The notes beneath the pieces were generated by a model. The model was not told where the DNA came from and ran no database searches. It was given only the letters and a program-made list of their open reading frames with translations. 64,000 nt of DNA from Marchantia polymorpha subsp. ruderalis (lineage: Eukaryota; Streptophyta; Marchantiopsida; Marchantiales; Marchantiaceae): the NCBI GenBank assembly GCA_037833965.1, contig AP031354.1, positions 30,978,001-31,042,000 on the forward strand, in the 5' to 3' direction. Positions 1-64,000 of the stretch are shown piece after piece. The number at the start of each line of letters is the position of its first letter. Within the stretch, counting starts at the first letter, position 1. A program made the translations under genes and the position numbers.

Positions 1-364
1 CATGGATTCAGTTTCTATGTCTTTCTTTCTTGATATCTTCTGTAATCATTTCTTCACAATTTCAATTTTCTTTTATTTTTGTATTTTTCTGTCACTGTTT
101 CTCTACATTTTCGTAATTATAATTATTTTGAGGCAATCATTTCTTTACATTTTACTGATTGAATATTTTCTGAAATTTTCTCTTTAGATTTTGCTCTTTT
201 TGTCTTGTTTTCATGGAATTATTCTTTTAAGTAATGCTTGTTTCTTTCTGAATATGTGATGATTTATTTCTTATTTTCTGAATTATCTCATGATAATTAA
301 GAAAATAAGATAACAAAACCCCCCGGGACCCTTCTGTCGACGTGATGTCCATCACGTCCGGACT
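1..364 (+). repeat. 5S-module leader, truncated before the 5S core
   Basis: AT-rich leader found upstream of most 5S-like cores in the window. It ends with the 9-bp palindrome GACGTGATG-tc-CATCACGTC (about 339-358) that normally lies about 12 bp before the 5S-like core. Here the sequence switches at about 365 to glyoxalase intron DNA, so the 5S core is absent. Confidence 0.85.
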
Positions 365-370
365 GCAAAG

Positions 371-1516
371 CTTGTAGTCTGAACCACATCAAATCGTGTA
401 TATATACAACTGCAAACACATTAGAAAATTCAAGGTCAGCCTAAAATCCCAGTTTGCAACTACTATATGCTCACCTGCTTTCTCAAGTGTTTGTCGAAGA
501 CCTTCAACATTCTTGCAGTTAAAGCATGCATGTCTGTCGAAACCACCATGCCCAGGCCGACCGTGAACTGGATCAGGGTTGGGAACCTCCATGATATGAA
601 TACCCTCAGCTCCCAAAAGTAACCAAGCTCCTCTATACGGAAGCTCTGGTCTATCTGGACTAGTCATCAAACCTATTGGAATGAATAAAAGATGGTTAGC
701 TATTTGATGAAAGCGGTTCGTTACTCACAGATTGCTGGAATGCATCCTTCGCTGTATTTCATTTCCTCCTATGTCTAAGACTGACATAACTGTCAAATTA
801 AATGATACACATACCCAAAAGTCCACAGTAAAAATCCAACGATTTTTCCAGGTTCTCGCAACGAAAGGTGACATGATTCAGCCCTTTGAACTGGACTGCA
901 ATACCCAAACGCACGTAGAATCACTTCGCAGCCATCCATGCACTAGTTGATTGAATAAGAAGAATGACATTGTTTCATGAATAGTATTCATATTGATGAA
1001 TCAAATATATCTGCAAGTTTTTCCATCGATCGAGTTTGGCACCAATCTCTTTCCCTTGATAATATGGAACAAATGAATGAAAACAGACATGATTGTATGT
1101 GACTACAATAAAATTTACTTACAATTGGTCGACTGTGACAATCTACGAATGAAAATTTGCTGAAAATTTATCTATAAATGCTGAAAATGATGACAAACTT
1201 CACAGGTGTGGAATAGAAACGTACATGAAGGAGAAACCGTGAGAGATTTCGAGTGAACATCTGCAGGCTCTTTTGAAGATTTTGTATCTTTGAAGGTTGG
1301 AGGTGCTTCCACTTCAGTATTTTCCATCGGCAAATTCATGAAGTCTACACTGTTGTCGCGTTGAAATTTCTCCTCGGGTAGAGACACACCATGAACTGCC
1401 CCACGGGAGCCCAGGTCATGCTCAGTGGACACAGATCCTTCTTCCGCTCTTCCTTCGTCCTTCAACATGTCCAATTCTTCAAGTTGATGGTTCTCCGCTA
1501 CTATGGCAGTTTTCAT
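371..1516 (-). pseudogene. Glyoxalase I-like (VOC) gene, 3'-truncated copy
   Basis: Minus-strand host-gene copy missing its last exon. Inferred exons: A 1225-1516 (starts ATG, MKTAIVAENH), B 815-895 (LNHVTFRCENLEKSLDFYCG), C 729-768, D 475-659 (PELPYRGAWLLLG, IHIMEVPNPDP, GFDRHACF). The donor after exon D (GTGAGC) is intact, but homology stops at about 371 where a 5S-module leader has been joined into the intron. The exon with the DPDG..LEF motif is therefore absent, and the fourth metal-ligand Glu expected of glyoxalase I folds is lost. The open frames of exons A-D are undamaged, so the loss is a recombination event, not gradual decay. Confidence 0.8.
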
Positions 1517-2207
1517 GAGTTTTTATGTGCCAGTGGAATGAGGTATGAGGTAGCTGATCCCTGCCCCTGCCCCTGGGTCTGGGCGAACGCAGGCTTCCAG
1601 GCCTTCCTCACTTCCTCCCTTCTTCCCTGCCTCCCGCTTGCACGCCTGCTCAGGTCTTCCCTCCCTCCCTCCCGAGCCCCCTCCTGGCATTTCGCCCCTC
1701 TTCCTTACGACCGAAATCGAAACACGCCCACTCCGCCTCTCGCTTTTCTCTCCTGCGCCCCTCCTCCCTGCTCCCGGATCGGACCCTCGTCACAAACGAC
1801 AGCAAAGAGACAGTGGCAGACGGCGCTTGTAACTCAGGTGACTACTGGAACAGAATGGACGACTGGACCCTGATGCGGCTGAACTGCACCTCACCCCATA
1901 TATATAGGTCGTCTGTGCTACGTCCTCCGAATGAGGTAGCTGATCCCTGCCCTGCCCCTGGGTCTGGGCGAGCGCAGGCTTCCAGGCCTTTACTCACTTC
2001 CTCCCTTCTTCCCTGCCTCCCGCTTGCACATCTTCCTTCCCTAACTCCAGCTCCCCCCCCCCTCCTCGTCACTAAAGGCTCAACACTTTTGGGGGAACGC
2101 GAGGGAGCTGATCCCTGCCCCTGCCCCCCGCTGCCTCCCGCGCATCGCTCACTTCCTGCCTCCCACTTGCATGCCTGGCTCAGGTCTTCCCTCCCTGCCT
2201 CCCGCTC
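1517..2207. repeat. CT-rich triplicated repeat, right arm of the inverted-repeat block (U1)
   Basis: GC/CT-rich stretch with three direct copies of a motif starting gctgatccctgccc (about 1550, 1940 and 2107), each followed by 'cttccctgcctcccgc'-type sequence. The outermost copy ends at 2207 with gcctcccgctc, the inverse of gagcgggaggc at the left side of the block in the other units. In U1 the left arm is missing. A TATA-like run lies at 1898-1906. Confidence 0.75.
1898..1906 (-). promoter_or_regulatory. TATA-like element upstream of the glyoxalase gene
   Basis: Read on the minus strand the sequence is cctatatatatggggtg, about 380 bp upstream of the ATG of exon A. It is the only TATA-like run between the gene and the next repeat. 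It recurs in every unit at 11808, 23826, 35851, 47864 and 59913. The promoter assignment is inferred from position and composition only; the long distance would require a long or spliced 5' leader. Confidence 0.35.
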
Positions 2208-2975
2208 AATGATGTGAAAACAATAATGTGAAAACAAACAGAACACAATTCATTTCATTTAAGTTCATTGACGATGTCTTCATTCAGTGGCCAGTCACGG
2301 TCCCTCGATTCTTGACTGACTGGTGACTAACCCCACGGTTTATTCCGTCCGTCGTCAATCACAGTCCCTCGATTCTTGACTGACTGTGAGTCGTCAGTCC
2401 AGTTCATATCCTTCGTCACGATATGAACTCCACTTGACGACTGACTGCAGACCGTCCCCCGGACGTTTCAAGATTCCTGCCGGGCGCAAGGAGGCATCAT
2501 TCGGACGCCTCTAGATTCCTGTCGGGCGCGAGATGACGCTCGTTTCACGGTGTCTGGAACCCAGCCGGGCGCAAGGGGAATTTATCGGACTCGTCCAGAT
2601 TCCTGTGGGGCGCGAGGGGGCATCCCTCGGACGCCTCTAGACACCTGTCGGGCGCGAGGGAACGCGCGTTTCACGAAGTCTCCACCCTCACTGACTGCAG
2701 ACCGTCCTCGGGACGTTTCAAGATTCCTGCCGGGCACAAATGGGCATCCCTCGGACGCGTCTATAAGCAATCAGGTTAGAAATTATTATTTATTATGCAC
2801 TTTTTTTCTTTTTTAAAAATGATACTCAAGCAATAAATTTGCATCTTTTTGAATAGACTTGGCTATAGAATCCTGCAAGAATTGAGCCCAAGATAATCTA
2901 GAGGTATACACATTTGATAACTCGATTCTTCACTGACCGTCAGTCGTTAGTCGAGTTCATATCCTTCCTCAGTGA
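2208..2975. repeat. TCAGTC palindromic tract, 42-bp minisatellite and AT-rich repeat R (U1)
   Basis: Three parts. 2270-2455 is rich in 'gactgactg' and holds a nested palindrome (2389-2442): AGTCGTCA/TGACGACT outside and AGTTCATATC/GATATGAACT inside, with a 9-nt loop. 2455-2768 is a GC-rich minisatellite with a 42-bp period and core GGGCGC(A/G)AGGG. 2769-2923 is AT-rich repeat R, which starts aatcaggttagaaattatt and recurs diverged near 7190, 7604 and 8513. No gene is visible. Confidence 0.85.
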
Positions 2976-5280: not shown

Positions 5281-6760
5281 CGATGTCTTCATTCAGTGGC
5301 CAGTCACGGTCCCTCGATTCTTGACTGACTGGCGACTGACCCCACGGTTTATTCCGTCAGTTGTCAAGATTCTTCACTGAGTGCTGACTGACCCCACGGT
5401 TTATTCCGTCCGTCGTCAATCACTGTCCCTCGATTCTTGACTGACTGTGAGTCGTCAGTCCAGTTCATATCCTTCGTCAGGATATGGACTCCACTTGACG
5501 ACTGACTGCAGACCGTCCCCCGGACGTTTCAAGATTCCTACCGGGCGCGAGGGGGCATCCCTCGGACGCCTCTAGATTCCTGTCGGGCGCGAGGAGACGC
5601 TCGTTTCACGGTGTCTGGAACCCGGCCGGGCGCAAGGGGGATTTATCGGACTCGTCCAGATTCCTGTGGGGCGCAAGGGGGCATCCCTCGGACGCCTCTA
5701 GATACCAGTCGGGCGCGAGGGAACGCGCGTTTCACAGAGTCTCCACCCTCGCTGACTCCAGACTGGCCACCGGACGCCTCTAGATTCCTGCCGGGCGCAA
5801 GGGGGATTTATCGGACTCGTCCAGATTCCTGTGGGGCGCAAGGGGCATCCCTCGGACGCCTCTAGATACCCGTCGGGCGCGAGGGAACGCGCGTTCTCAC
5901 GGTGTCGCCACCCTCACTGACTGCAGACCGTCCCCGGGACGTTTCAAGATTCCTGCCGGGCGCGAAGGGCAATCCCTCGGACGCTTCTTGATTCCTGTCG
6001 GCCTCGAGGAGACGCGCGTTTCACTCTGTCTGGAACCCGGCCGGGCGCAAGGGAGATATCTCGGACGCGTCTAGATTCCTGTGGGGCGCGAGGGGCCATC
6101 CCTCGGACGCATCTATATTCCTGTCGGGCGCGAGGGGACGCGCGTTTCACGGTGTCTGGGACCCGGCCGGGCGCAAGGGGGATTTCTCGGACTAGTCTAG
6201 ATTCCTGTGGGGCGCAAGGGGGCATCCCTCGGACGCCTCTAGATACCAGTCGGGCGCGAGGGAACGCGCGTTTCACAGAGTCTCCACCCTCGCTGACTCC
6301 AGACTGGCCCCCGGACGCCTCTAGATTCCTGCCGGGCGACGCGCGTTAAAGGGCGCGAGGGAACAAGCGTTCTCACGGTGTGGCCACCCTCACTGACTGC
6401 AGACCGGGATTTACCGGGATTTTTGGCGCAAGGGGGATTTCTCGGACGCGTCTAGATTCCTGTGGGGCGCGAGGGGCCATCCCTCGGACGCATCTATATT
6501 CCTGTCGGGCGCGAGGGGACGCGCGTTTCACGGTGTCTGGGACCCGGCCGGGCGCAAGGGGGATTTCTCGGACTAGTCTAGATTCCTGTGGGGCACGAGG
6601 GGGCATCCCTCGGACGCGTCTATATTCCTGTCGGGCGCGAGGGGATCTCTCGGACGGCCTCTACATTCCTGTCAGGCGCGAAGGGGCATCCCTCGGACGC
6701 GTCTAGATTCTCCAAAAAATAAGGGAAAATGACTCTGACTCGGACTACCTTAGGAGCTTT
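5281..6760. repeat. TCAGTC palindromic tract and long 42-bp minisatellite (U1)
   Basis: 5281-5512 holds TCAGTC repeats and a second nested palindrome (5450-5503) with one changed base in the inner stem (GATATGGACT), which still pairs as G-U in RNA. 5512-6712 is about 28 repeats of 42 bp in at least three types: gattcctg..ggcgcgagggg, acctgtcgggcgcgaggg..acgcgcg, and acccggccgggcgcaaggg. They often alternate as a 126-bp higher-order unit. U1 has local rearrangements near 6336 and 6416 and is about 140 bp longer than U2-U5. No gene is visible. Confidence 0.85.
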
Positions 6761-7073
6761 ATGATTTGCGGAAGTTCCACGGAGTGTGATCACCCATCCC
6801 AGACCTATTCCGTTCCAAGGGCGCTTAACCGCGGGGTTCTGATGGGATCTGGCATACCAGCCGTGATGCGATCGGAATCACGTCCATGAAAGAGTCCCCT
6901 GAGATTTTGTTATCTTGTCCTGTGATGGTTATTCGTTCGAGAGATAAAACAATCAAAAGTAAAATAAAAGCAAAAAATGAATAAAAGCAAAAAAATAAAA
7001 GTTTAAAAAACAATGAGATAGGTATATAAACGAATTCCATAAAAGATTACCAAGGAGATAACAGATAAATACG
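6761..7073 (-). repeat. Best-preserved 5S rRNA-like copy, minus strand (U1)
   Basis: The core 6761-6880 is 120 bp, the canonical 5S length. On the minus strand it reads ggctggtatgccagatccca then tcagaaccccgcggttaagc, gcccttgg and gggatgggtgatcac. This follows plant 5S rRNA (ccatcagaactccg-gttaagcg-gcttggg-aggatgggtgacc) more closely than the plus-strand cores. The AT-rich stretch to about 7073 is a diverged leader of the same kind (gataacaaaatctc). It is a 5S pseudogene or 5S-derived repeat; the 3' stem expected to close with the 5' end is poor. Confidence 0.65.
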
Positions 7074-7362
7074 ACTCTGACTCGGAAGTATGATCTGAAC
7101 CGTTGATCTCTGAACCAATGTTAGGATTTCTTTCTGAATTATTAGTAATCCTGGATAGAAATAGTTCCCTTTAGAATTTGGCAATCAGATCAGAAATTTT
7201 TATTTATGATGTTTTAATTCTTTTTTCTTAGAAACTGATATTCCTGCAATAAACTTGCATGAAAATCTCTTTGAATAAACTTCGTTATGGAATTCTGCAA
7301 GAATGGAGCCCAAGATAATTTGAAGTTATAAAATTTGAACCTAGAAGAACAATTGAGAGCGA
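7074..7362. repeat. AT-rich spacer with repeat copies (U1)
   Basis: Contains one of three copies of a gatctgaaccgttgatct motif (also near 8340 and 8435) and a diverged copy of repeat R (about 7190-7345, ending gagcccaagataat). No coding frame stands out. Confidence 0.6.
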
Positions 7363-7428
7363 CACGTGTTCAGTATTCTCTCATTAATGGCACGGGTATT
7401 GTAATCTCAGGTCTTACGCGTATAAATA
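7363..7428 (+). promoter_or_regulatory. G-box/TATA promoter-like element 1
   Basis: A perfect G-box inside the symmetrical ACACGTGT (CACGTG at 7363-7368) lies 53 bp upstream of a perfect TATAAATA (7421-7428), followed by a CT-rich leader (ccttccctctcg). This is the layout of a plant Pol II promoter. An ATG follows 59 bp after the TATA. Spacing and sequence repeat almost exactly in element 2. Confidence 0.55.
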
Positions 7429-7486
7429 CTGCAGCTGCACCTTCCCTCTCGTCCCTTCGGGGACATCTGAGTCACTGAGGGAAGAC

Positions 7487-7579
7487 ATGGACTTCAGTGA
7501 CGACTGGCGAAAGACATCTTTCCTGGATGCCGATCCTTCGGGGATCTCCCGGACGGCCTCCATAAACGATTACGGATAG
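7487..7579 (+). CDS. 30-codon ORF behind promoter 1
   Basis: Reads MDFSDDWRKTSFLDADPSGI and ends ...SINDYG. It is the first ATG after the TATAAATA box. The first 17 residues look like a natural, acidic N-terminus; from the DPSGISRT part the DNA merges into the 42-bp minisatellite motif (cggggatctcccggacgg). It is probably the captured start of a plant gene cut by a repeat. The other units have MDLSDDWRK at 19510, 31534, 43559 and 55574. Family not recognised. Confidence 0.35.
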   Translation: MDFSDDWRKTSFLDADPSGISRTASINDYG

Positions 7580-7776
7580 AAACAGTAACATTTAGAAATT
7601 ATAAATCAGGTTAGAAATTATTGTTTATTATTTCTTATTTTCTATTTTGAAAATGATATTCATGCAATAAATCTGCATCTTTTTTAATAGACTTGGCTAT
7701 ACAAATTCTGCAAGAATTGAGCCCAAGATAATCTGGAGTTAAAAACATTTGAAACTAGAAAAACATTTGAGAGCGC

Positions 7777-7912
7777 CACGTGTTCCGTATTCTCGCATTA
7801 AAGGCATGAGTGTTGTAATCTCAGGTCTTACGCGTATAAATACTGCAGCTGCACCTCCCCTCTCGTCTCTTCGGGGACATCCGATCAGCGGCCGTTGGTA
7901 GCCGCTGATCGG
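7777..7912 (+). promoter_or_regulatory. G-box/TATA promoter-like element 2 with a 12-bp hairpin
   Basis: Direct repeat of element 1: CACGTG at 7777-7782, TATAAATA at 7835-7842 and the same leader (gcagctgcacctcccctctc). After the shared sequence a perfect inverted repeat follows, CCGATCAGCGGC (7881-7892), 8-nt loop, GCCGCTGATCGG (7901-7912). It would form a stable 12-bp stem in RNA or DNA near the start of the transcript. There is no ATG in the leader comparable to that of element 1. Confidence 0.5.
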
Positions 7913-7924
7913 CCGGGCGCAAGG

Positions 7925-8725
7925 GGAAGGTGAGTGGCGCGTCCCCTTGCGCCCTTGGCAGGAACTTGCAAATCGGCACAAAATTGAAAGCAGGAATTGA
8001 AGAAGAGAGGATGAGGGGAAGGCGAGCAGCAGCAGCAGGGCCAGAGAAAGGGGGAGAGAGAGAGAGAGGGCGGAGACAGAGAGAACAAGCGAGAGCGAGA
8101 GCGCGCAGTGGAGAACGGCTTTGGGGCTTTAGGTTTAGGGTAGCAGGAGCGCAGCAGCGGCAGCAGCAGGAGGCATACCAGCCCTGACGTGATCGAATCA
8201 TGGCGCATTTTGTTATCTTTTCCTATGATAATCACTCGCATGAGAGATGAAGGAATAAGAAATGAAATAAAAAAATAAAACCAATGAATCAAATGGATAA
8301 AAAAAAACTTGAATAAAAAGACAAAACTAAAGACTCTGAAGAATGATCTGAACAGTTGATCTTTGAGCCAATGTGGAGATTATTTTTTTTAATTATAAAT
8401 GATCATGGATAGATAAATATGACTCTGAAGTATGATCTGAACCGTTGATCTTTGTATCAATGTTGGGATTTCTCTTCGATTCTAAATAATCATGGATAGA
8501 AACAGAAACATTTAGAATTAAGCAATCAGGTTAGAAATTATTATTTATTATGCACTTTTTTTTTCTATTTTAAAAATGGTACTCATGCAGTAAATTTGCA
8601 TCTTTTTGAATAGACTTGGCTATAGAATCCTGCAAGAATTGAGCCCAAGATAATCTGGAGTTATACACATTTGATAACTCGATTCTTGACTGACCGTCAG
8701 TCGAGATCATATCCTTCCTCAGTGA
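7925..8725 (-). repeat. Diverged SIN3-leader copy, 5S stub and AT spacer (U1)
   Basis: 7925-8150 aligns with the SIN3-like leader at 9740-10030 (shared tggcgcgtccc, caggaacttg, cacaaaattga, gagagcgcgcagtg and a ggtttaggg motif), so it is an older duplicate of that promoter/leader. 8173-8200 is the first 28 bp of a minus-strand 5S-like copy (ggctggtatgcc type) with its AT-rich leader to about 8330. 8330-8725 is AT-rich spacer with two gatctgaac.gttgatct repeats and a copy of repeat R (about 8513-8688). No coding potential seen. Confidence 0.6.
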
Positions 8726-9242
8726 CTCTAATCGATAGAAGTGTGGCCTTAGGTATTTATTTTAATATGTTAACTTAGTTATTTCTTCATGGATTCAGTT
8801 TCTATGTCTTTCTTTCTTTATATCTTCTGTAATCATTTCTTCACGATTTCGATTAATTTTTATTATTTTTTTATGTCACTGTTTCTCTACATTTTCGTAA
8901 TTTTATTTATTTTAATGCAATCATTTCTTTACATTTGACTGATTGAATAATTTCTGAAATTTTCTCTTTAGATTTTACTTTTTTATTTTTCATGGAATTG
9001 TTTTTTTTATGTGCTTGTTTCTTTCTGAATATGTGATTATATATTTATTATTTTCTTAATTATCTCATGATAATTAAGAAAATAAGATAACAAAACCCCC
9101 CGGGTGCCTTTCATCGACGTGATGTCCATCACGTCCGGACTGGTGTAACCCAGATCCGATAAGACCGCTGCGGTTAAGCGCCCTTGGCACGGAAGAGGTC
9201 TGGGATGGGTGACCTCCACTCCGTGGAACTTCCGCAGATCAT
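8726..9242 (+). repeat. 5S-like module with strong T-run (U1)
   Basis: Leader 8726-9148, palindrome at about 9115-9137, core 9149-9242 (gcggttaagcgcccttgg, gatgggtgacctccactccg). A run of 12 Ts follows at about 9276-9287, within 50 bp of the core, which is where a Pol III terminator would be. Confidence 0.75.
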
Positions 9243-9332
9243 AAACATAAAAAAGTTCCTAAACTCCTTTTCGTTTTTTTTTTTTTAATTTTTTTTAATT
9301 TTTTTTTAAATTTTATAAGAGGGATCGATTCT

Positions 9333-9444
9333 ATGAATGCGACCATGGCCCCTCGGACCCTCGTACATACGAGGTACGATGTCAGCAGTACGAGGTACGG
9401 AGGATATGCGACCGTGGCCCCTCGGACCCTCGTACATACGAGGT
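9333..9444. repeat. Short 69-bp array joined to SIN3 fragment (U1)
   Basis: 1.6 repeats. The array stops within the palindrome at tacgaggtaaaattc, where SIN3-like coding DNA begins on the opposite strand. Confidence 0.9.
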
Positions 9445-10030
9445 AAAATTCAAATTCAATATTCAAAATCTCCAGAAACGCCTTGTACACGTGCTCCTCA
9501 GCTGAAAATCGTGTCTTGACTTTGTTGAAAAAGTTGATGGTCTGATCAGAGGCCGAAGAACCTTCCTCCCTTGAACGCTTCATCCTCCTTCGCCCTTCAG
9601 AAACACAGCTCACTTCTATGAACACAGCTGGAACTCAGCACGAAATTGAAACAAGATTTTTTGAAACGATTCGATTGAGGAGGGAGAGCGTCTTACCTCC
9701 CCTTGCGCCCGCACAGGATCGAGACGAGCGTCAGGAGGACAGGTGGCGCGTCCCTTCGCGCTATGGACCAGATGACACTACCCAAGACTCTCAAAGGCAG
9801 CAGGAACTTGGACAGCACAAAATTGAATGCAGGAACTTGGATTTTAGCAAATTGGAAGGTGAACGCGTCTTACCTTCCCCTCGCGCCCGCCGTGCCAAGA
9901 AAAACCGCTATGCTGTTGCGCTTCTGGCTGGTTGACGAGCGGAAACACGAAAGGCTGGAACGAGACGAGAGGAGGAGCGAGTGCGAGACGAGCGAGAGCG
10001 CGCAGTGCCGAGCGGTTTAGGGTTTAGGTA
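9445..10030 (-). pseudogene. SIN3-like gene: promoter, leader and first coding exon only (U1)
   Basis: Minus strand. Coding begins at ATG 9581-9583: MKRSREEGSSASDQTINFFN then KVKTRFSAEEHVYKAFLEIL, 40 residues to 9464. The NFFNKVKTRF..EEHVYKAFLEIL part matches the first two helices of a paired amphipathic helix (PAH) domain of SIN3 co-repressors, and MKRSRE resembles plant SIN3-like N-termini. Upstream lie an acceptor (gagttccag, exon edge 9627), two leader donors (gtaagacgc at about 9696 and 9873) and a telo-box (10016-10028). SIN3 proteins are over 1000 residues; this copy ends in the first PAH, where a 69-bp array begins. Read-through would add the array frame. Confidence 0.65.
10016..10028 (-). 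promoter_or_regulatory. Telo-box at the SIN3-like promoter
   Basis: tttagggtttagg on the plus strand, that is cctaaaccctaaa in the direction of the SIN3-like leader. Telo-boxes near start sites are common in plant housekeeping and growth genes. Two repeats are too few for a telomere remnant. The same site recurs at 22034, 34059, 46076 and 58098. Confidence 0.5.
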
Positions 10031-10035
10031 TAGGG

Positions 10036-11418
10036 TCACTCAGAAAAGACATGAATTCCACCCCTAAAACCCCCAGGGAGAGCGGGAGGCAGGGAGGGAA
10101 GACCTGAGCCAGGCGTGCAAGCCTCCGCTCGCCCAGACCCAGGGGTCAGAGGACTAATTTCAATAAACTCCAATCCATTGCCATCAGGATCGCAACAGAA
10201 TATTGAGGGCACCATGCAGTGCTGGTACGGTATCCCTTCAAAAGAGAAATGAGGGTGTACGTTATAGCAAAGCTTGTAGTCTGAACCACATCAAATCGTG
10301 TTTATATACAACTGCAAACACATTAGAAAATTCAAGGTCAGCCTAAAATCCCAGTTTGCAACTACTATATGCTCACCTGCTTTCTCAAGTGTTTGTCGAA
10401 GACCTTCAACATTCTTGCAGTTAAAGCATGCATGTCTGTCGAAACCACCATGCCCAGGCCGACCGTGAACTGGATCAGGGTTGGGAACCTCCATGATATG
10501 AATACCCTCAGCTCCCAAAAGTAACCAAGCTCCTCTATACGGAAGCTCTGGTCTATCTGGACTAGTCATCAAACCTATTGGAATGAATAAAAGATGGTTA
10601 GCTATTTGATGAAAGCGGTTCGTTACTCACAGATTGCTGGAATGCATCCTTCGCTGTATTTCATTTCCTCCTATGTCTAAGACTGACATAACTGTCAAAT
10701 TAAACGGTACACATACCCAAAAGTCCACAGTAAAAATCCAGCGATTTCTCCAGGTTCTCGCAACGAAAGGCGACATGATTCAGCCCTTTGAACTGGACTG
10801 CAATACCCAAACGCACGTAGAATCACTTCGCAGCCATCCATGCACTAGTTGATTGAATAAGAAGAATGACATTGTTTCATGAATAGTATTCATATTGATG
10901 AATCAAATATATCTGCAAGTTTTTCCATCGATCGAGTTTGGCACCAATTTCTTTCCCTTGATAATATGGAACAAATGAATGAAAACAGACATGATTGTAT
11001 GTGACTACAATAAAATTTACTTACAATTGGTCGACTGTGACAATCTACGAATGAAAATTTGCTGAAAATTTATCTATAAATGCTGAAAATGATGACAAAC
11101 TTCACAGGTGTGGAATAGAAACGTACATGAAGGAGAAACCGTGAGAGATTTCGAGTGAACATCTGCAGGCTCTTTTGAAGATTTTGTATCTTTGAAGGTT
11201 GGAGGTGCTTCCTCTTCAGTATTTTCCATCGGCAAATTCATGAAGTCTACACTGTTGTCGCGTTGAAATTTCTCCTCGGGTAGAGACACACCATGAACTG
11301 CCCCACGGGAGCCCAGGTCATGCTCAGTGGACACAGATCCTTCTTCCGCTCTTCCTTCGTCCTTCAACATGTCCAATTCTTCAAGTTGATGGTTCTCCGC
11401 TGCTATGGCAGTTTTCAT
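10036..11418 (-). CDS. Glyoxalase I-like (VOC superfamily) gene, five exons, U2
   Basis: Model: A 11127-11418, B 10717-10797, C 10631-10670, D 10377-10561, E 10036-10235; all introns are GT-AG, phases agree, 265 residues. The protein resembles plant plastid-type lactoylglutathione lyase/glyoxalase I family proteins (PYRGAWLWVG, MELPNPDP, GGRDRHAC in relatives). Visible motifs: LNHVTFRC (His105), GIHIMEVPNPDP (Glu162), GFDRHACF (His181), CCDPDGNGLEF (Glu222). These fit the H/E/H/E metal tetrad of glyoxalase I. The first 97 residues are hydrophilic, acidic and unlike a transit peptide. ATG 11416-11418 was chosen because an in-frame stop lies just upstream. After EISPL the frame runs on for 37 residues into an inverted repeat, so the natural C-terminus is probably replaced. 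Catalytic function is unproven; an MG-detoxifying or other VOC role is possible. Confidence 0.75.
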
Positions 11419-12120
11419 GAGTTTTTATGTGCCAGTGGAATGAGGTATGAGGTAGCTGATCCCTGCCCCTGCCCCTGGGTCTGGGCGAACGCAGGCTTCC
11501 AGGCCTTCCTCACTTCCTCCCTTCTTCCCTGCCTCCCGCTTGCACGCCTGCTCAGGTCTTCCCTCCCTCCCTCCCTCCCTCCCGAGCCCCCTCCTGGCAT
11601 TTCGCCCCTCTTCCTTACGACCGAAATCGAAACACGCCCACTCCGCCTCTCGCTTTTCTCTCCTGCGCCCCTCCTCCCTGCTCCCGGATCGGACCCTCCT
11701 CACAAACGACAGCAAAGAGACAGTGGCAGACGGCGCTTGTAACTCAGGTGACTACTGGAACAGAATGGACGACTGGACCCTGATGCGGCTGAACTGCACC
11801 TCACCCCATATATATAGGTCGTCTGTGCTACGTCCTCCGAATGAGGTAGCTGATCCCTGCCCTGCCCCTGGGTCTGGGCGAGCGCAGGCTTCCAGGCCTT
11901 TACTCACTTCCTCCCTTCTTCCCTGCCTCACGCTTGCATGTCTTCCTTCCCTAACTCCCGCTCCCCCCCCCCCCCTCCTCGTCACTAAAGGCTCAACACT
12001 TTTGGGGGAACGCGAGGGAGCTGATCCCTGCCCCTGCCCCCCGCTGCCTCCCGCGCATCGCTCACTTCCTGCCTCCCGCTTGCATGCCTGGCTCAGGTCT
12101 TCCCTCCCTGCCTCCCGCTC
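10080..12120. mobile_element. Inverted-repeat-bounded block carrying the glyoxalase gene (U2)
   Basis: The left arm starts at 10080 with gagcgggaggcagggaggga and continues agacctgagccaggcgtgc. The right arm ends at 12120 with the inverse (gcctggctcaggtcttccct, ccctgcctcccgctc); about 43 bp match with one difference. Two further inner copies of the right arm lie at about 11450-11585 (with a 37-bp insertion) and 11840-11960. The gene fills the interior and a TATA-like run is at 11808-11816. This looks like gene capture between terminal inverted repeats (Pack-type non-autonomous element) or a fold-back repeat. No transposase and no clear target-site duplication is visible. Confidence 0.5.
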
Positions 12121-12888
12121 AATGATGTGAAAATAATAATGTGAAAACAAACAGAACACAATTCATTTCATTTAAGTTCATTGACGATGTCTTCATTCAG
12201 TGGCCAGTCACGGTCCCTCGATTCTTGACTGACTGGTGACTAACCCCACGGTTTATTCCGTCCGTCGTCAATCACAGTCCCTCGATTCTTGACTGACTGT
12301 GAGTCGTCAGTCCAGTTCATATCCTTCGTCACGATATGAACTCCACTTGACGACTGACTGCAGACCGTCCCCCGGACGTTTCAAGATTCCTGCCGGGCGC
12401 AAGGAGGCATCATTCGGACGCCTCTAGATTCCTGTCGGGCGCGAGGAGACGCTCGTTTCACGGTGTCTGGAACCCAGCCGGGCACAAGGGGAATTTACCG
12501 GACTCGTCCAGATTCCTGTGGGGCGCGAGGGGGCATCCCTCGGACGCCTCTAGACACCTGTCGGGCGCGAGGGAACGCGCGTTTCACGGTGTCTCCACCC
12601 TCACTGACTGCAGACCGTCCCCGGGACGTTTCAAGATTCCTGCCGGGCGCAAAGGGGCATCCCTCGGACGCGTCTATAAGCAATCAGGTTAGAAATTATT
12701 ATTTATTATGCACTTTTTTTCTATTTTAAAAATGATACTCAAGCAAAAAATTTGCATCTTTTTGAATAGACTTGGCTATAGAATCCTGCAAGAATTGAGC
12801 CCAAGATAATCTGGAGTTATACACATTTGATAACTCGATTCTTGACTGACCGTCAGTCGTTAGTCGAGTTCATATCCTTCCTCAGTGA
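12121..12888. repeat. TCAGTC tract, 42-bp minisatellite and repeat R (U2)
   Basis: Same order as in U1: nested palindrome 12302-12355, minisatellite about 12360-12680, AT-rich repeat R 12682-12838. Nothing else is seen. Confidence 0.85.
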
Positions 12889-13391
12889 CTCTAATCGATA
12901 GAAGTGTGGCCTTGGGTATTTATTTTCAATATGTTAACTTAGTTATTCCTTCATGGATTCAGTTTCTATGTCTTTCTTTCTTAATATCTTCTGTTATCAT
13001 TTCTTCACGATTTCGATTAATTTTTATTATTTTTTCATGTCTCTGTTTCTCTACATTTTCGTATTTATATTTATTTTAATGCAATCATTTCTTTACATTT
13101 GACTGATTGAATATTTTCTGAACTTTTTCTCTTTAGATTTTGCTTTTTTATTTTTCATGGAATTGTTTTTTAATGTGCATGTTTCTTTCGGAAAATGTGA
13201 TTATATATTTATTATTTTCTGAATTATCTCATGATAATTAAGAAAATAAGATAACAAAACCCCCCGGGAGCCTTTCATCGACGTGATGTCCATCACGTCC
13301 GGACTCTGATAAGACCGCTGCGGTCAAGCGCCCTTGGCACGGAAGAGGTCTGGGATGGGTGACCTGCACTCCGTGGAACTTCCGCAGATTA
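12889..13391 (+). repeat. 5S-like module 1 (U2)
   Basis: Core 13306-13391. This subtype has lost the first part of the core: the palindrome is followed by ggactctgataagacc instead of ggactggtgtaacccagatc. The T-run downstream is interrupted. Confidence 0.75.
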
Positions 13392-13472
13392 TAAACATGA
13401 AAAAGTTCCTAAACTCCTCTTCGTTTTTTTTTTTCTTTAATTTTTTTTTATTTTTTAAGAGGGGTCGATTCT

Positions 13473-13717
13473 ATGAATGCGACCATGGCCCCTCGGACCC
13501 TCGTACATACGAGGAACGATGTCAACAGTACGAGGTACGGGGGATATGCGATCGTGGCCCCTCGGACCCTCGTACATACGAGGTACGAGGTCAGCAGTAC
13601 GAGGTACGGAGGATATGCGACCGTGGCCCCTCGGACCCTCGTCCATACGAGGAACGATGTCAGCAGTACGAGGTACGGAGGATATGCGGACCTGGGCCCC
13701 TCGGACTATACGAGGTA
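13473..13717. repeat. 69-bp array 1 (U2), 3 repeats plus a part
   Basis: The first repeats carry 'gaggaacgatgtcaac' and 'acgggggat' variants that mark this array position in U2-U6. Confidence 0.95.
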
Positions 13718-14745: not shown

Positions 14746-14825
14746 AAACATAAAAAAGTTCCTAAACTCCTTTTCGTTTTTTTTTTTTTTAATTTTTTTA
14801 AAATTTTATAAGAGGGGTCGATTCT

Positions 14826-46090: not shown

Positions 46091-46095
46091 TAGGG

Positions 46096-49446: not shown

Positions 49447-49527
49447 TAAACATGAAAAAGTTCCTAAACTCCTCTTCGTTTTTTTTTTTCTTTAATTTTT
49501 TTTTATTTTTTAAGAGGGGTCGATTCT

Positions 49528-49772
49528 ATGAATGCGACCATGGCCCCTCGGACCCTCGTACATACGAGGAACGATGTCAACAGTACGAGGTACGGGGGAT
49601 ATGCGATCGTGGCCCCTCGGACCCTCGTACATACGAGGTACGAGGTCAGCAGTACGAGGTACGGAGGATATGCGACCGTGGCCCCTCGGACCCTCGTCCA
49701 TACGAGGAACGATGTCAGCAGTACGAGGTACGGAGGATATGCGGACCTGGGCCCCTCGGACTATACGAGGTA
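49528..49772. repeat. 69-bp array 1 (U5), 3 repeats plus a part
   Basis: As in U2. Confidence 0.95.
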
Positions 49773-50324: not shown

Positions 50325-50800
50325 CTCTAATCGATGGAAGTGTGGCCTTGGGTATTTATTTTCAATATGTTAACTTAGTTATTTCCTCATGGATTCAGTT
50401 TCTATGTCTTTCTTTCTTTATATCTTCTGTAATCCTTTCTTCACAATTTCAATTTTCTTTTATTTTTGTATTTTTTGGTCACTGTTTCTCTACATTTTCG
50501 TAATTATATTTATTTTGAGGCAATCATTTCTTTAAATTTTACTGATTGAATATTTTCTGAAATTTTCTCTTTAGATTTTACTTTTTTAATTTTATTTTTC
50601 ATGGAATTATGTTTTTTAGTAATGCTTGTTTCTTTCTGAATATGTGATGATTTATTTATTATTTTCTGAATTATCTCATGATAATAAAGAAAATAAGATA
50701 ACAAAACCCAGATCCGATAAGACTGCTGCGGTGAAGCGCCCTTGGCACTTAAGAGGTCTGGGATGGGTGACCTCCACTCCGTGGAACTTCCGCATATCAT
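50325..50800 (+). repeat. 5S-like module 2 (U5)
   Basis: Core 50707-50800, with the ccgcatatcat change shared with U4. Confidence 0.75.
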
Positions 50801-50889
50801 AAACATAAAAAAGTTCCTAAACTCCTTTTCGTTTTTTTTTTTTTTAATTTTTTTAATTTTTTTAAAATTTTATAAGAGGGGTCGATTCT

Positions 50890-51070
50890 ATGAATGCGAC
50901 CGTGGCCCCTCGGACCCTCGTACATACGAGGTACGATGTCAACAGTATGAGGTACGGAGGATGTGCGACCGTGGCCCCTTGGACCCTCGTACATACGAGG
51001 TACGATGTCAGCAGTACGAGGTACGGAGGATATGCGACCGTGGCCCCTCGGACCCTCGTACATACGAGGT
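50890..51070. repeat. 69-bp array 2 (U5), 2.6 repeats
   Basis: As in U3. Confidence 0.95.
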
Positions 51071-51262
51071 AAAATTCAAATTCAATATTCAAAATCTTCA
51101 GAAATGCCTTGTACACGTGCTCCTCCGCTGAAAATCGTGTCTTGACTTTGTTGATAAAGTTGATGGTCTGATCAGAGGCCGAAGAACCTTCCTCCCTTGA
51201 ACGCTTCATCCTCCTTCGCCCTTCAGAAACACAGCTCACTTCTATGAACACAGCTGGAACTC
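51071..51262 (-). pseudogene. SIN3-like first exon fragment (U5, copy a)
   Basis: Coding part 51090-51209. Confidence 0.65.
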
Positions 51263-51470
51263 AGATGATTTATTTATTATTTTCTGAATATTCTCATGAT
51301 AATTAAGAAAATATGATAACAAAACCCCCTGGGACCCTTTCGTCGACGTGATGTCCATCACGTCCGGACTGGTGTAACCCAGATCCGATAAGACCGCTGC
51401 GGTGAAGCGCCCTTGGCACGGAAGAGGTCTGGGATGGGTGACCTCCACTCCGTGGAACTTCCGCAGATCA
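51263..51470 (+). repeat. 5S-like module 3, leader truncated (U5)
   Basis: Core 51378-51470. Confidence 0.75.
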
Positions 51471-51550
51471 TAAACATGAAAAAGTTCCTAAACTCCTTTT
51501 TGTTCTAATTTTTAATTTTTGGTTTGATTTTTAATTAGGAGGGTCAATTC

Positions 51551-52070
51551 TATGAACGCGACCGTGGCCCCTCGGACCCTCGAACATACGAGGTACGAGG
51601 TCAGCAGTACGAGGTACGGAGGATATGCGACCGTGGCCCCTCGGACCCTCGTCCATACGAGGAACGATGTCAGCAGTACGAGGTACGGAGGATATGCGAC
51701 CGTGGCCCCTCGGACCCTCGTACATACGAGGTACGAGGTCAGCAGTACGAGGTACGGAGGATATGCGACCGTGGCCCCTCGGACCCTCGTACATACGAGG
51801 TACGAGGTCAGCAGTACGAGGTACGGAGGATATGCGACCGTGGCCCCTCGGACCCTCGTACATACGAGGTACGAGGTCAGCAGTACGAGGTACGGAGGAT
51901 ATGCGACCGTGGCCCCTCGGACCCTCGTACATACGAGGTACGAGGTCAGCAGTACGAGGTACGGAGGATATGCGACCGTGGCCCCTCGGACCCTCGTCCA
52001 TACGAGGAACGATGTCAGCAGTACGAGGTACGGAGGATATGCGGACCTTGGCCCCTCGGACTATACGAGG
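51551..52070. repeat. 69-bp array 3 (U5), 7 repeats plus a part
   Basis: Same homogeneous composition as U4. Confidence 0.95.
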
Positions 52071-52683
52071 TAAAAATCTGGCGCTGCCCCTGGCGCATTC
52101 CTGGGAGTTCGGCAGTCCCTTTGTTCGGAAGCGAGGGAGGAAAGGAGGAAAGGAGGAAACAAATGTACCCGAGTGTGCGCCTCGCCAAGTAGGAGCGTTG
52201 GGAGCGCGAGTCTCGCGGTGCATTGAACCCGGCCGGGCGAAATGGAAATCTCCCGGACGCGCCCGGGTTCCTGGGGGGCGCCAGGGGACGCGCGTCTCGC
52301 GGTGTCTTGAACCCGGGCGGGCGCGATGGGGGTCTCTCGGATGCGTGTAGAATCTTGTCGGGCGCAAGGGGGATCTCCCGGACGCGTCTCGATTTCCTTT
52401 CGCCAAGGACTGGTCTATCAGAAGTGTGCCAGGGCCCAAGGCCCAAGTTCGTACCTGTACCAGGGCACCCTCTTCTTGCTGGTTTTGGGGCGCAAGGCCG
52501 TCCACTACCTGCCTTGCTGGAGAACTCTTTATATTTCAGAATAGTTCAACGCTTTGGATCATGCCTCAGAGTAAGAGCCTTGGTTATGTTATGACCAGAG
52601 CTTCAACTCCAATGATTGCATACCCTTGAATCGGCCTTGGAAGAGTTGGCTTATGCCGAGCACACAGCCCTACTGTGCGTAGT
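52071..52683. repeat. GC-rich segment 2 with unidentified tail (U5)
   Basis: Has the 'ttcg' version, unlike segment 1 of the same unit. Confidence 0.8.
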
Positions 52684-53210
52684 CTCTAATCGATGGAAGT
52701 GTGGCCTTGGGTATTTATTTTCAATATGTTAACTTAGTTATTTCCTCATGGATTCAGTTTCTATGTCTTTCTTTCTTTATATCTTCTGTAATCCTTTCTT
52801 CACAATTTCAATTTTCTTTTATTTTTTTAATTTTTATGTCACTGTTTCTGTACATTTCGTAAATATATTTATTTTGAGGCAATCATTTCTTTACATTTTA
52901 CTGATTGAATATTCTCTGAAATTTTCTCTTTAATTTTTGCTCTTTTTGTTTAGTTTTCATGGAATTATTCTTTTTAGTAATGCTTGTTTCTTTCTGAATA
53001 TGTGATGATTTATTTATTATTTTCTGAATTATCTCATGATAATTAAGAAAATAAGATAACAAAACCCCCCGGGACCCTTCTGTCGACGTGATGTCCATCA
53101 CGTCCGGACTGGTGTAACCCAGATCCGATAAGACCGCTGCGGTGAAGCGCCCTTGGCACGGAAGAGGTCTGGGATGGGTAACATCCAGTCCGTGGAACTT
53201 CCGCAGATCA
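52684..53210 (+). repeat. 5S-like module 4 (U5)
   Basis: Core 53118-53210. The leader shows a patch (ctttcttcacaatttcaatt, about 52796) matching module 2 leaders instead of the U2-U4 module 4 leaders. Confidence 0.75.
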
Positions 53211-53498
53211 TAAACATGAAAAAGTGCCTAAAGTCCTTTTCGTTTTTTTTTTATAAAGTGAGAAGATTTTACAGCGAGCGAAAAAAGGGAGTTTGTTAGT
53301 CGCAGAGTTTGTCACATTTTTTAGATTCGATCTTTCGAGTAGGAGGAGGCGTGGAAAAAATATGTGTGAAACTGGAAAAAAGCCAGAACTCCCAACTGAT
53401 AAAACTATATGTAATCTCGTCAGATCTAATGTTGTCAAGGACGAAAACATTGATGTGAAAACAAACAGAACACAATTCATTTCATTTTAGCTCATTGA
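53211..53498 (+). other. Unidentified exon-like piece MCETG (U5)
   Basis: ATG 53362, stop at 53488-53490. Confidence 0.35.
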
Positions 53499-54847
53499 CG
53501 ATGTCTTCATTCAGTGGCCAGTCACGGTCCCTCGATTCTTGACTGACTGGCGACTGACCCCACGGTTTATTCCGTCAGTTGTCAAGATTCTTCACTGAGT
53601 GCTGACTGACCCCACGGTTTATTCCGTCCGTCGTCAATCACTGTCCCTCGATTCTTGACTGACTGTGAGTCGTCAGTCCAGTTCATATCCTTCGTCAGGA
53701 TATGGACTCCACTTGACGACTGACTGCAGACCGTCCCCCGGACGTTTCAAGATTCCTACCGGGCGCGAGGGGGCATCCCTCGGACGCCTCTAGATTCCTG
53801 TCGGGCGCGAGGAGACGCTCGTTTCACGGTGTCTGGAACCCGGCCGGGCGCAAGGGGGACTTATCGGACTCGTCCAGATTCCTGTGGGGCGCAGGGGGCA
53901 TCCCTCGGACGCCTCTAGATACCAGTCGGGCGCGAGGGAACGCGCGTTTCACGGAGTCTCCACCCTCGCTGACTCCAGACTGGCCCCCGGACGCCTCTAG
54001 ATTCCTGCCGGGCGCAAGGGGGATTTATCGGACTCGTCCAGATTCCTGTGGGGCGCAAGGGGGCATCCCTCGGACGCCTCTAGATACCTGTCGGGCGCGA
54101 GGGGACGCGCGTTTCACGGTGTCTGGGACCCGGCCGGGCGCAAGGGGGATTTATCGGACTCGTCCAGATTCCTGTGGGGCGCGAGGGGGCATCCCTCGGA
54201 CGCCTCTAGATACCTGTCGGGCGCGAGGGAACGCGCGTTTCACGGAGTCTCCACCCTCACTGACTCCAGACTGGCCCCCGGACGCCTCTAGATTCCTGCC
54301 GGGCGCGAGGGGGCATCCCTCGGACGCCTCTAGACACCTGTCGGGCGCGAGGGAACGCGCGTTCTCACGGTGTCGCCACCCTCACTGACTGCAGACAGTC
54401 CCCGGGACGTTTCAAGATTCCTGCCGGGCGCGAAGGGCAATCCCTCGGACGCTTCTAGATTCCTGTCGGCCTCGAGGAGACGCGCGTTTCACTCTGTCTG
54501 GAACCCGGCCGGGCGCAAGGGAGATATCTCGGACGCGTCTAGATTCCTGTGGGGCGCGAGGGGCCATCCCTCGGACGCATCTATATTCCTGTCGGGCGCG
54601 AGGGGACGCGCGTTTCACGGTGTCTGGGAACCGGCCGGGCGCAAGGAGGATTTCCCGGACTAGTCTAGATTCCTGTGGGGCGCGAGGGGGCATCCCTCGG
54701 ACGCGTCTATATTCCTGTCGGGCGCGAGGGGATCTCTCGGACGGCCTCTACATTCCTGTCGGGTGCGAAGGGGCATCCCTCGGACGCGTCTAGATTCTCC
54801 AAAAAATAAGGAAAAATGACTCTGACTCGGACTACCTTAGGAGCTTT
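53499..54847. repeat. TCAGTC tract and long 42-bp minisatellite (U5)
   Basis: Nested palindrome 53668-53721; minisatellite about 53734-54796. Confidence 0.85.
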
Positions 54848-62383: not shown

Positions 62384-62571
62384 CTCTAATCGATGGAAGT
62401 GTGGCCTTGGGTATTTATTTTCAATATGTTAACTTAGTTATTTCCTCATGGATTCAGTTTCTATGTCTTTCTTTCTTTATATCTTCTGTAAGACCGCTGC
62501 GGTGAAGCGCCCTTGGCACGGAAGAGGTCTGGGATGGGTGACCTCCACTCCGTGGAACTTCCGCAGATCAT
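62384..62571 (+). repeat. 5S-like module with internal deletion (U6)
   Basis: Leader 62384-62488 is joined directly to core position 'agaccgctgcgg' at about 62489; the core continues to 62571. The A-box and C-box regions are kept but the core start is lost. Confidence 0.8.
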
Positions 62572-62651
62572 AAACATGAAAAAGTTCCTAAACTCCTTTT
62601 TGTTCTAATTTTTAATTTTTGGTTTGATTTTTAATTAGGAGGGTCAATTCT

Positions 62652-63375
62652 ATGAACGCGACCGTGGCCCCTCGGACCCTCGAACATACGAGGTACGAGG
62701 TCAGCAGTACGAGGTACGGAGGATATGCGACCGTGGCCCCTCGGAGCCTCCTCCATACGAGGAACGATGTCAGCAGTACGAGGTAGGGAGGATATGCGAC
62801 CGTGGCCCCTCGGACCCTCGTAGATACGAGGTACGAGGTCAGCAGTACGAGGTACGGAGGATATGCGACCGTGGCCCCTTGGACCCTGGTACATACGAGG
62901 TACGAGGTCAGCAGTACGAGGTTCGGAGGATATGCGACCGTGGCCCCTCGGACCCTCGTACATACGAGGTACGAGGTAGCAGTACGAGGTAGGGAGGATA
63001 TGCGACCGTGGCCCCTCGGACCCTCGTAGATACGAGGTACGAGGTCAGCAGTACGAGGTACGGAGGATATGCGACCGTGGCCCCTTGGACCCTGGTACAT
63101 ACGAGGTACGAGGTCAGCAGTACGAGGTACGGAGGATATGCGACCGTGGCCCCTCGGACCCTCGTACATACGAGGTACGAGGTAGCAGTACGAGGTTCGG
63201 AGGATATGCGACCGTGGCCCCTCGGACCCTCGTACATACGAGGTACGAGGTCAGCAGTACGAGGTACGGAGGATATGCGACCGTGGCCCCTCGGACCCTC
63301 GTCCATACGAGGAACGATGTCAGCAGTACGAGGTACGGAGGATATGCGGACCTGGGCCCCTCGGACTATACGAGG
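62652..63375. repeat. Expanded 69-bp array (U6), 10 repeats plus a part
   Basis: Contains a three-repeat block duplicated with a 206-bp shift (about 62799-63004 and 63005-63210), each copy with the same markers: tagatac, ccttggaccctggtac, and a 1-bp deletion in 'gaggtagcag'. Confidence 0.95.
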
Positions 63376-63987
63376 TAAAAATCTGGCGCTGCCCCTGGCG
63401 CATTCCTGGGAGTTCGGCAGTCCCTTTGTTCGGAAGCGAGGGAGGAAAGGAGGAAAGGAGGAAACAAATGTACCCGAGTGTGCGCCTCGCCAAGTAGGAG
63501 CGTTGGGAGCGCGAGTCTCGCGGTGCATTGAACCCGGCCGGGCGAAATGGGGATCTCCCGGACGCGCCCGGGTTCCTGGGGGGTGCCAGGGGACGCGCGT
63601 CTCGCGGTGTCTTGAACCCGGGCGGGCGCAATGGGGATCTCTCGGATGCGTGTAGAATCTTGTCGGGCGCAAGGGGGATCTCCTGGACGCGTCTCGATTT
63701 CCTTCCGCCAAGGACTGGTCTATCAGAAGTGTGCCAGGGCCCAAGGCCCAAGTTCGTACCTGTACCAGGGCACCCTCTTCTTGCTGGTTTTGGGGTGCAA
63801 GGCCGTCCACTACCTGCCTTGCTGGAGAACTCTTTATATTTCAGAATTGTTCAACGCTTTGGATCATGCCTCAGAGTAAGAGCATTGGTTATGTTATGAC
63901 CAGAGCTTCAACTCCAATGATTGCATACCCTTGAATCGGCCTTGGAAGAGTTGGCTTATGCCGAGCACACAGCCCTACTGTGCGTAG
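63376..63987. repeat. GC-rich segment 2 with unidentified tail (U6)
   Basis: In this copy the tail frame reads ...TLYISELFNALDHASE with no stop before FNALD, showing that the open frame extends upstream of the 45 codons seen in U1. It is closed after HASE. Confidence 0.75.
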
Positions 63988-64000
63988 TCTGTAATCGATG
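63988..64000 (+). repeat. Start of another 5S-module leader, cut by the window
   Basis: Only tgtaatcgatg-type sequence is present, the first bases of the AT-rich leader. Confidence 0.6.

Follow-up and report, generated by a model that had tools for sequence, protein, structure and literature searches.

Organization of the array

The window, that is the whole 64-kb stretch of DNA that was analysed, consists throughout of head-to-tail repeats with a period of about 12.02 kb (in self-BLAST, 6425-50432 aligns with 18448-62491 at 99.5%). The preliminary description had counted at least six units; the head-to-tail periodicity was borne out, however the array actually comprises four full periods (U2-U5, 12,015-12,025 bp), a partial U6, a rearranged short U1 and a 364-bp tail, U0. 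U3 was taken as the canonical reference unit, with an arbitrarily chosen border that lies inside a minisatellite.

1-364, unstranded: U0 tail, 28707-29070 in U3 terms (jumping alignment to U3)
1-6424, unstranded: U0 tail with rearranged mosaic U1 (jumping alignment against U3 with pieces at 93-99% identity; BLAST)
6425-18447, unstranded: U2, 12,023 bp
18448-30471, unstranded: U3, 12,024 bp
30472-42496, unstranded: U4, 12,025 bp
42497-54511, unstranded: U5, 12,015 bp
54512-64000, unstranded: U6, incomplete, continuing past the window end

The array exists as such, and its ends presumably lie close to those of the window. With head-to-tail units longer than 1 kb and a homogenised interior, as in concerted evolution, it has two properties of a macrosatellite or tandem segmental array. 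Each full unit carries a gene of the VOC/glyoxalase superfamily, two truncated SIN3 first exons, twin G-box/TATA blocks, two minisatellite families and six 5S-like Pol III promoter modules, with a further truncated module examined in U3 only. The features of U3 are as follows.

18779-18902, minus strand: 5S-like module m1 (highest-scoring of the modules against 5S at 32.6 bits, under the cut-off)
19176-19493, plus strand: G-box/TATA block 1 (CACGTG at 19386, TATAAATA at 19444)
19597-19907, plus strand: G-box/TATA block 2 (CACGTG at 19800, TATAAATA at 19858; 81% identical to block 1)
20190-20230, minus strand: truncated 5S-like module m2 (no better than shuffles against 5S)
21105-21266, plus strand: 5S-like module p1 (internal-repeat map, 5S comparison, core search, box comparison)
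21470-22050, minus strand: SIN3 5' end (positions; PDB SIN3 match, E=5e-8)
22054-23436, minus strand: VOC/glyoxalase-superfamily gene (spliced ORF, GT-AG introns, Pfam PF00903)
22098-24136, unstranded: inverted repeats flanking the VOC gene (43-nt arms, 98%, at 22098-22140 and 24094-24136)
25263-25410, plus strand: 5S-like module p2 (evidence as for p1)
25492-25721 and 26854-27031, strand not given: smaller arrays of the 69-bp minisatellite
26668-26763, plus strand: 5S-like module p3, without its 5' part (internal-repeat map, 5S comparison, core search)
27032-27224, minus strand: second, shorter SIN3 piece (26924-27224 is 98.3% identical to 21356-21656)
27273-27434, plus strand: 5S-like module p4 (evidence as for p1)
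27518-28021, plus strand: largest array of the 69-bp minisatellite, 7.3 copies
29013-29174, plus strand: 5S-like module p5 (evidence as for p1)
29694-30757, plus strand: 42/126-bp minisatellite, GC-rich, with some 25 copies of 42 bp, spanning the chosen unit border

The two minisatellite families, with repeats of 69 bp and of 42/126 bp, and the twin G-box blocks had been proposed earlier, and both claims hold, the pair of CACGTG and TATAAATA blocks occurring in 5/5 units that contain the region.

Gene content of the unit

The VOC gene of U3 has exons at 23436-23145, 22815-22735, 22592-22395 and 22253-22054 (with the stop) and a predicted product of 256 aa, which scores 43.8 bits against PF00903 (gathering cut-off 20.6). 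A five-exon gene had been described for every unit; the gene is there, however our model has four coding exons, with an extra 5'UTR exon possible, and it is not whole in every unit, U1 being truncated and without exon 4. It is intact in all five units that have all exons, out of six that reach the gene, and the coding sequence is identical in U2, U3, U4 and U5, with a single change, G167D, in U6. By eye, a TATA-like sequence lies upstream on the minus strand.

The protein is collinear with intronless bacterial relatives that are at most 50% identical over their length (261 confirmed, 80 kept, four aligned) and that we take to be ordinary family members. Alignment with the four shows that the VOC core is retained and that their S-R-S-G-R stretch is replaced by one two residues shorter. 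H8, H75 and E116 presumably coincide with metal-binding positions of E. coli GloA; at what we take to be the fourth such position, the protein and the four bacterial relatives have H. We also presume a resemblance to plant proteins. The stretch 21000-24800 had no match among 72,556 plasmid records.

When U2-U6 are compared, 2 of the 1383 columns of the gene stretch vary, the introns being just as quiet. Between U1 and U3, exons differ at 5/571 and introns at 3/471 positions, with three of the five exon changes replacing residues; as exons are as variable as introns, the gene shows no sign of selection. In the C-terminal tail, about 22 codons coincide with a repeat that flanks the gene, and nucleotides 91-156 of exon 4 sit in the region of the left inverted-repeat arm. 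Pack-type (gene-capturing) DNA transposons have terminal inverted repeats around a host gene, and the 43-nt inverted repeat (98%) is a mere candidate for such a terminal position. Weaker inverted pairs also surround the gene, and by eye no target-site duplication adjoins the arms at the two borders 22098 and 24136.

The SIN3 5' end comprises a telomere-like box at 22034, a presumed 5'UTR, an ATG at 21601 and the putative first half of a PAH domain, followed by the 69-bp minisatellite. The putative half domain matches PDB SIN3 chains (best E=5.4e-8); a Pfam search of the piece gave no match. Since the reading frame enters the minisatellite, this is not a full-length gene. First-exon pieces, as had been suggested, occur twice per full unit and once in U6 (nine copies of an ATG-bearing 23-mer). 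The CACGTG at 21506 and 27074 falls inside the SIN3 coding piece and was therefore not counted as a promoter element.

A Pfam scan covered 19 ORFs out of 61 listed for a single unit, plus the spliced gene; the VOC gene gave the sole match above cut-off, and no retrotransposon or transposase coding was found. Sub-cut-off matches to KNOX1, Thump_like, DUF2933, LSM_int_assoc, OB_ChsH2_C, DUF5824, Pkinase_C, Gla, DUF6617, EOS1 and DUF2098 were set aside, as were those of two other VOC models on the VOC gene. ARAGORN, run with the bacterial code, found no tRNA genes.

5S-like modules

A search for 5S-like cores gave 30 in the window at three mismatches or fewer, against 0.00 expected from shuffles: six each in U2-U5, four in U6 and two in U1. 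The core presumably resembles Arabidopsis 5S. No match in the window reached the gathering score of Rfam RF00001, and in U3 a covariance-model search found one module at 32.6 bits (cut-off 38), the others being absent at E up to 1; true 5S rRNA genes were accordingly rejected. The earlier count of up to seven 5S-like copies thus stands as six per full unit plus the truncated seventh in U3, though they are not recognisable as 5S genes.

When the minus-strand module is compared with four plus-strand modules, the A box (15-16/16), C box (11-13/13) and IE (12/14) are kept and the flanks are not (22-32 of 55-80 positions). In 6/6 modules, the C box and the start of an oligo-T run are 66-72 bases apart. 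The published Cassandra C-box pattern, as given in the available part of PMC7215508, matched 24 times against 0.05 expected, and 5S-type A, IE and C boxes, a trait of Cassandra TRIM elements, are all present, the A box by eye one mismatch from the pattern published there. Cassandra elements also have two LTRs and a target-site duplication; a direct duplication (73-75%) with undefined ends, which holds m1 and m2, is at most a candidate for the LTR pair. The primer-binding site TGGTATCAGAGC, in the form given in the same portion of PMC7215508, had 0 matches at two mismatches or fewer, with 3.75 expected by chance, and Cassandra membership was rejected on this ground.

Divergence and rearrangement

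Near-identity of U2-U5 had been noted at the outset and is confirmed, all six pairs being 99.48-99.90% identical with 12-62 substitutions per 12 kb as against 1-7 indel events; U6 is at 98.5-98.8%. Repeated blocks of at least about 300 bp inside one unit are 81-98% identical, pairs within the 42/126-bp minisatellite excluded. Private variants gather at the outer ends of a homogenised middle: 27/34 of those of U2 lie within its first 1.5 kb on the left, and only 14/107 of those of U6 within its first 5 kb, the bulk being toward the right. These substitution counts and outer-end variants support the earlier suggestion of recent amplification or homogenisation. U4 and U5 share 10 variants and U2 and U3 share 4; three are common to U2 and U6, which simple duplication order does not yield.

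In U3 terms, U1 runs 22285-24966, 26347-26664, 27336-27729, 25568-26535, 28895-30018, 30270 over the unit border to 18523, and 30047-30382. U6 has lost about 0.96 kb at 62488/62489, a junction that links U3 positions 26389 and 27349, and has an expanded 69-bp array (62658-63366). Jumping alignment gave 11 joints in U0/U1 and U6, classed against the internal-repeat map of U3 and the minisatellite arrays. Eight connect members of a single repeat family: five lie in minisatellites, two in the AT-rich leaders of 5S modules and one where a 5S core starts. The other three do not join like repeats. That all joints fall within 5S-like blocks was ruled out by this finer mapping, as a 5S core contains or borders an end of 4/11 and the other 7/11 lie outside. 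Periodicity, a hierarchy of identities, edge-biased divergence and joints between same-family repeats are directly observed.

Comparison with known systems

The human macrosatellite D4Z4 carries a gene. Repeats of the Marchantia Y chromosome contain multicopy genes, and the likeness to the present array is that genes are amplified inside plant repeats. That no plant macrosatellite of such content had been described is compatible with the literature searched by content, where nothing was recognised as the 12-kb unit, although plants do have tandem arrays that carry genes, among them Kochia EPSPS (PMC6808082) and Marchantia glutamine synthetase (PMC13078153). As far as the available portions of these articles describe them, they too are head-to-tail repeats of a gene-carrying segment; however, the reported repeat lengths are in the tens of kb, whereas the 12-kb unit is mostly repeat DNA and is not known to confer a trait. 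D4Z4 and DXZ4, in the accessible text of PMC8122249, likewise have kilobase-scale head-to-tail units, in contrast to which the present unit is a plant-type composite of gene pieces and 5S-like modules, with about six units seen. Cassandra elements and their tandem arrays, as excerpted from PMC7215508 and PMC10853983, share repeated 5S-derived Pol III promoter boxes, but their array units are several hundred bp, and here the primer-binding site was not found and an LTR-internal-LTR layout is not demonstrated. Wheat long tandem repeats (1.2-2.7 kb) are also long-unit plant repeats, though shorter than 12 kb, and the available part of PMC6567227 does not mention a gene.

Origin of the array

The array looks like the product of a recent tandem duplication of the ordinary kind, although its 12-kb unit is unusually mixed in content. 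We consider it probable that a plant nuclear segment, a patchwork of host and repeat sequence, was multiplied by unequal exchange and carried the gene along as a passenger. A plant origin has indirect support, from the likeness of the 5S core to Arabidopsis 5S and the presumed likeness of the gene to plant proteins. An ancestral locus with many internal repeats, both minisatellites and 5S-like promoter blocks including their AT-rich leaders, would have picked up host gene pieces, the intron-bearing VOC gene and the SIN3 5' end; misaligned exchange between internal repeats may have built the composite, which would then have been multiplied and homogenised by unequal crossing-over and gene conversion, the outer units escaping homogenisation and decaying into mosaics. 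Unequal crossing-over, the process we infer, has also been proposed for the Kochia EPSPS repeats in the available part of PMC6808082. In favour of this explanation are the higher identity between U2-U5 than between repeated blocks inside one unit, the variants shared by U4 and U5 and by U2 and U3, the private variants at the edges, the eight joints within repeat families, the excess of substitutions over indel events, the similar divergence of exons and introns between U1 and U3, and the loss of exon 4 from U1. The variants shared by U2 and U6 and the three joints between unlike repeats count against this explanation.

The VOC gene would most likely be a passenger, possibly still transcribed, although its intactness in all five all-exon units and its retained core count against this and make function possible; selection could also give the low variation of the gene stretch in U2-U6. 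Retention of the array because extra copies of the enzyme help, for instance in aldehyde detoxification under stress, has in its favour the complete open frame in 5/6 units reaching the gene, with one residue change among five, the TATA-like sequence and, as a precedent, the tandem EPSPS copies of Kochia (PMC6808082, in the portion available). We regard it as unlikely, given the missing exon-intron contrast between U1 and U3, the replaced and shortened S-R-S-G-R stretch, the repeat-matching C-terminal codons and the truncated U1 copy. A drive by live Pol III units of Cassandra/TRIMp3 type, through transcription-linked breaks at the modules, is very improbable: boxes kept amid unkept flanks, regularly placed oligo-T runs and the four joints at 5S cores speak for it, but seven joints lie elsewhere, five of them in minisatellites, the primer-binding site was not found, a single U3 module is 5S-like by covariance model and then under cut-off, and homology suffices for repeat recombination without transcription. 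Near-identical units could also arise from wrong expansion of a single or double locus in assembly; this is hardly credible in view of the substitutions between units, their partly nested sharing and the edge-biased decay, and unit-specific deletion and minisatellite lengths would be unexpected had an assembler copied one unit.

Under the preferred explanation of amplification by unequal exchange, the array shows how gene scraps, 5S-derived promoters and minisatellites, patched together, turn into a long-unit repeat that is homogenised yet decays at its edges. That 5S-derived Pol III blocks, their AT-rich leaders and minisatellites acted as the recombination seeds that built and expanded it is an improbable proposition; since only 4/11 joints lie in or at a 5S core, this reading and the 5S-driven alternative were weighted lower. 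If it were true, Cassandra-like promoters without a retroelement would be part of a tandem-duplication engine carrying a metabolic gene. The array offers a testable case of whether Pol III promoter remnants help to seed tandem duplication in plants.

Organization of the array

On comparing the window against itself, the main offset was found to be 12,015-12,025 bases, and 18448-62491 matches 6425-50432 at 99.5%. Placing the unit cuts at 6425, 18448, 30472, 42497 and 54512 gives the following successive head-to-tail units.

Units of the tandem array
U2, 6425..18447, 12,023 bp, complete unit
U3, 18448..30471, 12,024 bp, complete unit
U4, 30472..42496, 12,025 bp, complete unit
U5, 42497..54511, 12,015 bp, complete unit
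U6, from 54512, partial sixth unit

Pairwise identity amongst U2-U5 is 99.48-99.90%, in keeping with the near-identity proposed in the preliminary description, and U6 is 98.5-98.8% identical to these units. The head-to-tail period of about 12.02 kb also holds; the proposed count of at least six units has to be qualified, as four are complete, U6 is partial and U1 is rearranged. The first 6.4 kb of the window is shorter than one full unit, the remnant of an earlier unit (U0, 1-364) directly abuts the last intron of the VOC gene, and U1 is assembled, mosaic-like, from parts of the canonical unit (U3), to which the single pieces show 93-99% identity. The poorest-matching of these pieces (93%), at 6120-6424 on the U1/U2 border, is GC-rich and includes a stretch without a BLAST match (6339-6424).

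Contents of the unit

The VOC/glyoxalase-superfamily gene lies on the minus strand, and its spliced model has four coding exons and three GT-AG introns. The product of 256 residues, which resembles plant glyoxalase-like proteins, matches Pfam PF00903 at residues 102-214 (43.8 bits against a cut-off of 20.6). Intronless bacterial proteins align with its core end to end at 47-50% identity, and this collinearity supports the exon borders. H8, H75 and E116, numbered by the alignment with bacterial relatives, are retained; the protein lacks the S-R-S-G-R stretch present in the four aligned relatives, and its loop is shorter by two residues. The final 38 residues fall outside the aligned part. About 22 of their codons, at nucleotides 91-156 of exon 4, match a GC-rich repeat that has an inverted copy upstream of the gene. 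Gammaproteobacterial VOC proteins from Sedimenticola, Ca. Thiodiazotropha and two MAGs (L001-L004; 47-50% identity) share DFYCGLLGL with the window protein, DFYCGLLG being itself one of the six scan patterns. G167D, in the U6 copy (58459-58656), is the sole residue change amongst complete copies.

The best pair of inverted arms (22098-22140 and 24094-24136), which enclose the gene together with the region upstream of it, are 43 nt long and 98% identical, and by eye no target-site duplication was seen adjoining them. Together with the gene, this inverted repeat is a possible candidate for a gene-capture element, though one without target-site duplication.

Each complete unit holds two SIN3 pieces (21470..22050 and 27032..27224 in U3, minus strand), which include a start codon followed by half of a PAH domain, the first half. 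The SIN3 piece matched SIN3 chains in PDB (E=5e-8) and gave no match in a Pfam search; its frame runs on into the 69-bp minisatellite. The longer piece is preceded by a telomere-like box, an element often present in promoters of plants. This TTTAGGGTTTA box, at 22034-22044 ahead of the SIN3 piece, occurs in 5/5 units with that region. Twin CACGTG/TATAAATA blocks, spaced 414 bp apart, are likewise found in all five units having the relevant region. They lie between the copies of a direct duplication (19080-20700, minus strand, 73-75%) comprising a 5S module, an AT-rich stretch and a further block, a duplication that may be what is left of an LTR-type element. Both minisatellite families described earlier, of 69 bp and 42/126 bp, were found. 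The 69-bp minisatellite of U6 (62658-63366) amounts to 10.3 copies, in which a higher-order pattern of 206/275 bp is seen, and that of U2-U5 to 7.3 copies.

The A, IE and C boxes of 5S type are present in six modules per complete unit, a seventh being truncated (U3), and oligo-T runs follow all six full modules. At up to 3 mismatches, 30 5S-like cores were detected in the window as against none in shuffles. In a comparison with one plant 5S sequence, that of Arabidopsis, six of the seven U3 modules outscore every one of 200 shuffles, the exception being the truncated module. The resemblance of the 5S core to this plant sequence, together with that of the VOC product to plant glyoxalase-like proteins, suggests a plant origin. 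The Rfam 5S model, run on U3, detected only the minus-strand module, with a score under the cut-off. The boxes are almost the same in the minus-strand and four plus-strand modules, whereas the flanks are not alignable; since upstream flanks are common amongst the plus-strand modules (e.g. 57/60), this contrast depends on a single old split. Cassandra and related elements are described as keeping their promoter boxes in variable surroundings (PMC10886601, PMC10853983), and the modules of the array resemble them in this. Despite 24 matches to the published Cassandra C-box pattern, the Cassandra primer-binding site is absent from the window, and membership is therefore not claimed.

Homogenization and rearrangement

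Within the unit, repeated blocks with a length of at least about 300 bp are 81-98% alike, not counting pairs that fall in the 42/126-bp minisatellite, and the U2-U5 units are at least 99.5% alike. The older internal duplications are thus less alike than the units, which makes the 12-kb unit a higher-order repeat built from them. Private substitutions are spread very unevenly: over 9435 gap-free columns, 27 of the 34 in U2 fall within its first 1.5 kb, and only 14 of 107 in U6 within its first 5 kb. Of these 107, 53 adjoin the U6 deletion, where misalignment could inflate the count; without those columns, U6 has 14 in 4985 to the left versus 40 in 3701 to the right. The interior of the array is homogenized and both outer ends have diverged, from which we infer a small array, mostly covered by the window, both ends of which are still repeat DNA.

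Jumping alignment gave 11 joints (8 in U0/U1 and 3 in U6), unchanged at two penalties. When classed against the within-unit repeat and minisatellite maps, eight connect like with like (five in minisatellite, two in AT-rich 5S leader and one at matching points of two 5S cores), one is a 14-base duplication within a 5S core, and two bring together unlike sequences, of which one is a 5S core. As eight of 11 joints connect like repeats, unequal exchange between internal repeats is a well-supported explanation. A special role of 5S cores, involved in four of 11 joints by raw count, is not supported.

Between U1 and U3, the exons of the VOC gene show five differences in 571 bases, three of them residue-replacing, and the introns three in 471; across U2-U6 the whole gene, introns included, has two variant columns in 1383. 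Exons and introns are not separable in divergence, so the identity is accounted for by homogenization, and a passenger role of the gene is possible. The counts are small enough for weak constraint to be compatible with them too.

Relation to known arrays

Gene-bearing tandem arrays are reported in plants, for Kochia EPSPS (PMC6808082) and for Marchantia (PMC13078153); in barley, tandem repeats of kilobase size have been proposed to induce duplication (PMC12573847), and macrosatellites form a standard class (PMC8122249). Amongst the matches listed in a full-text literature search, whose coverage leaves out most subscription papers, the content of this unit was not recognized. The array is of a type already known, and the composition of its unit is unusual.
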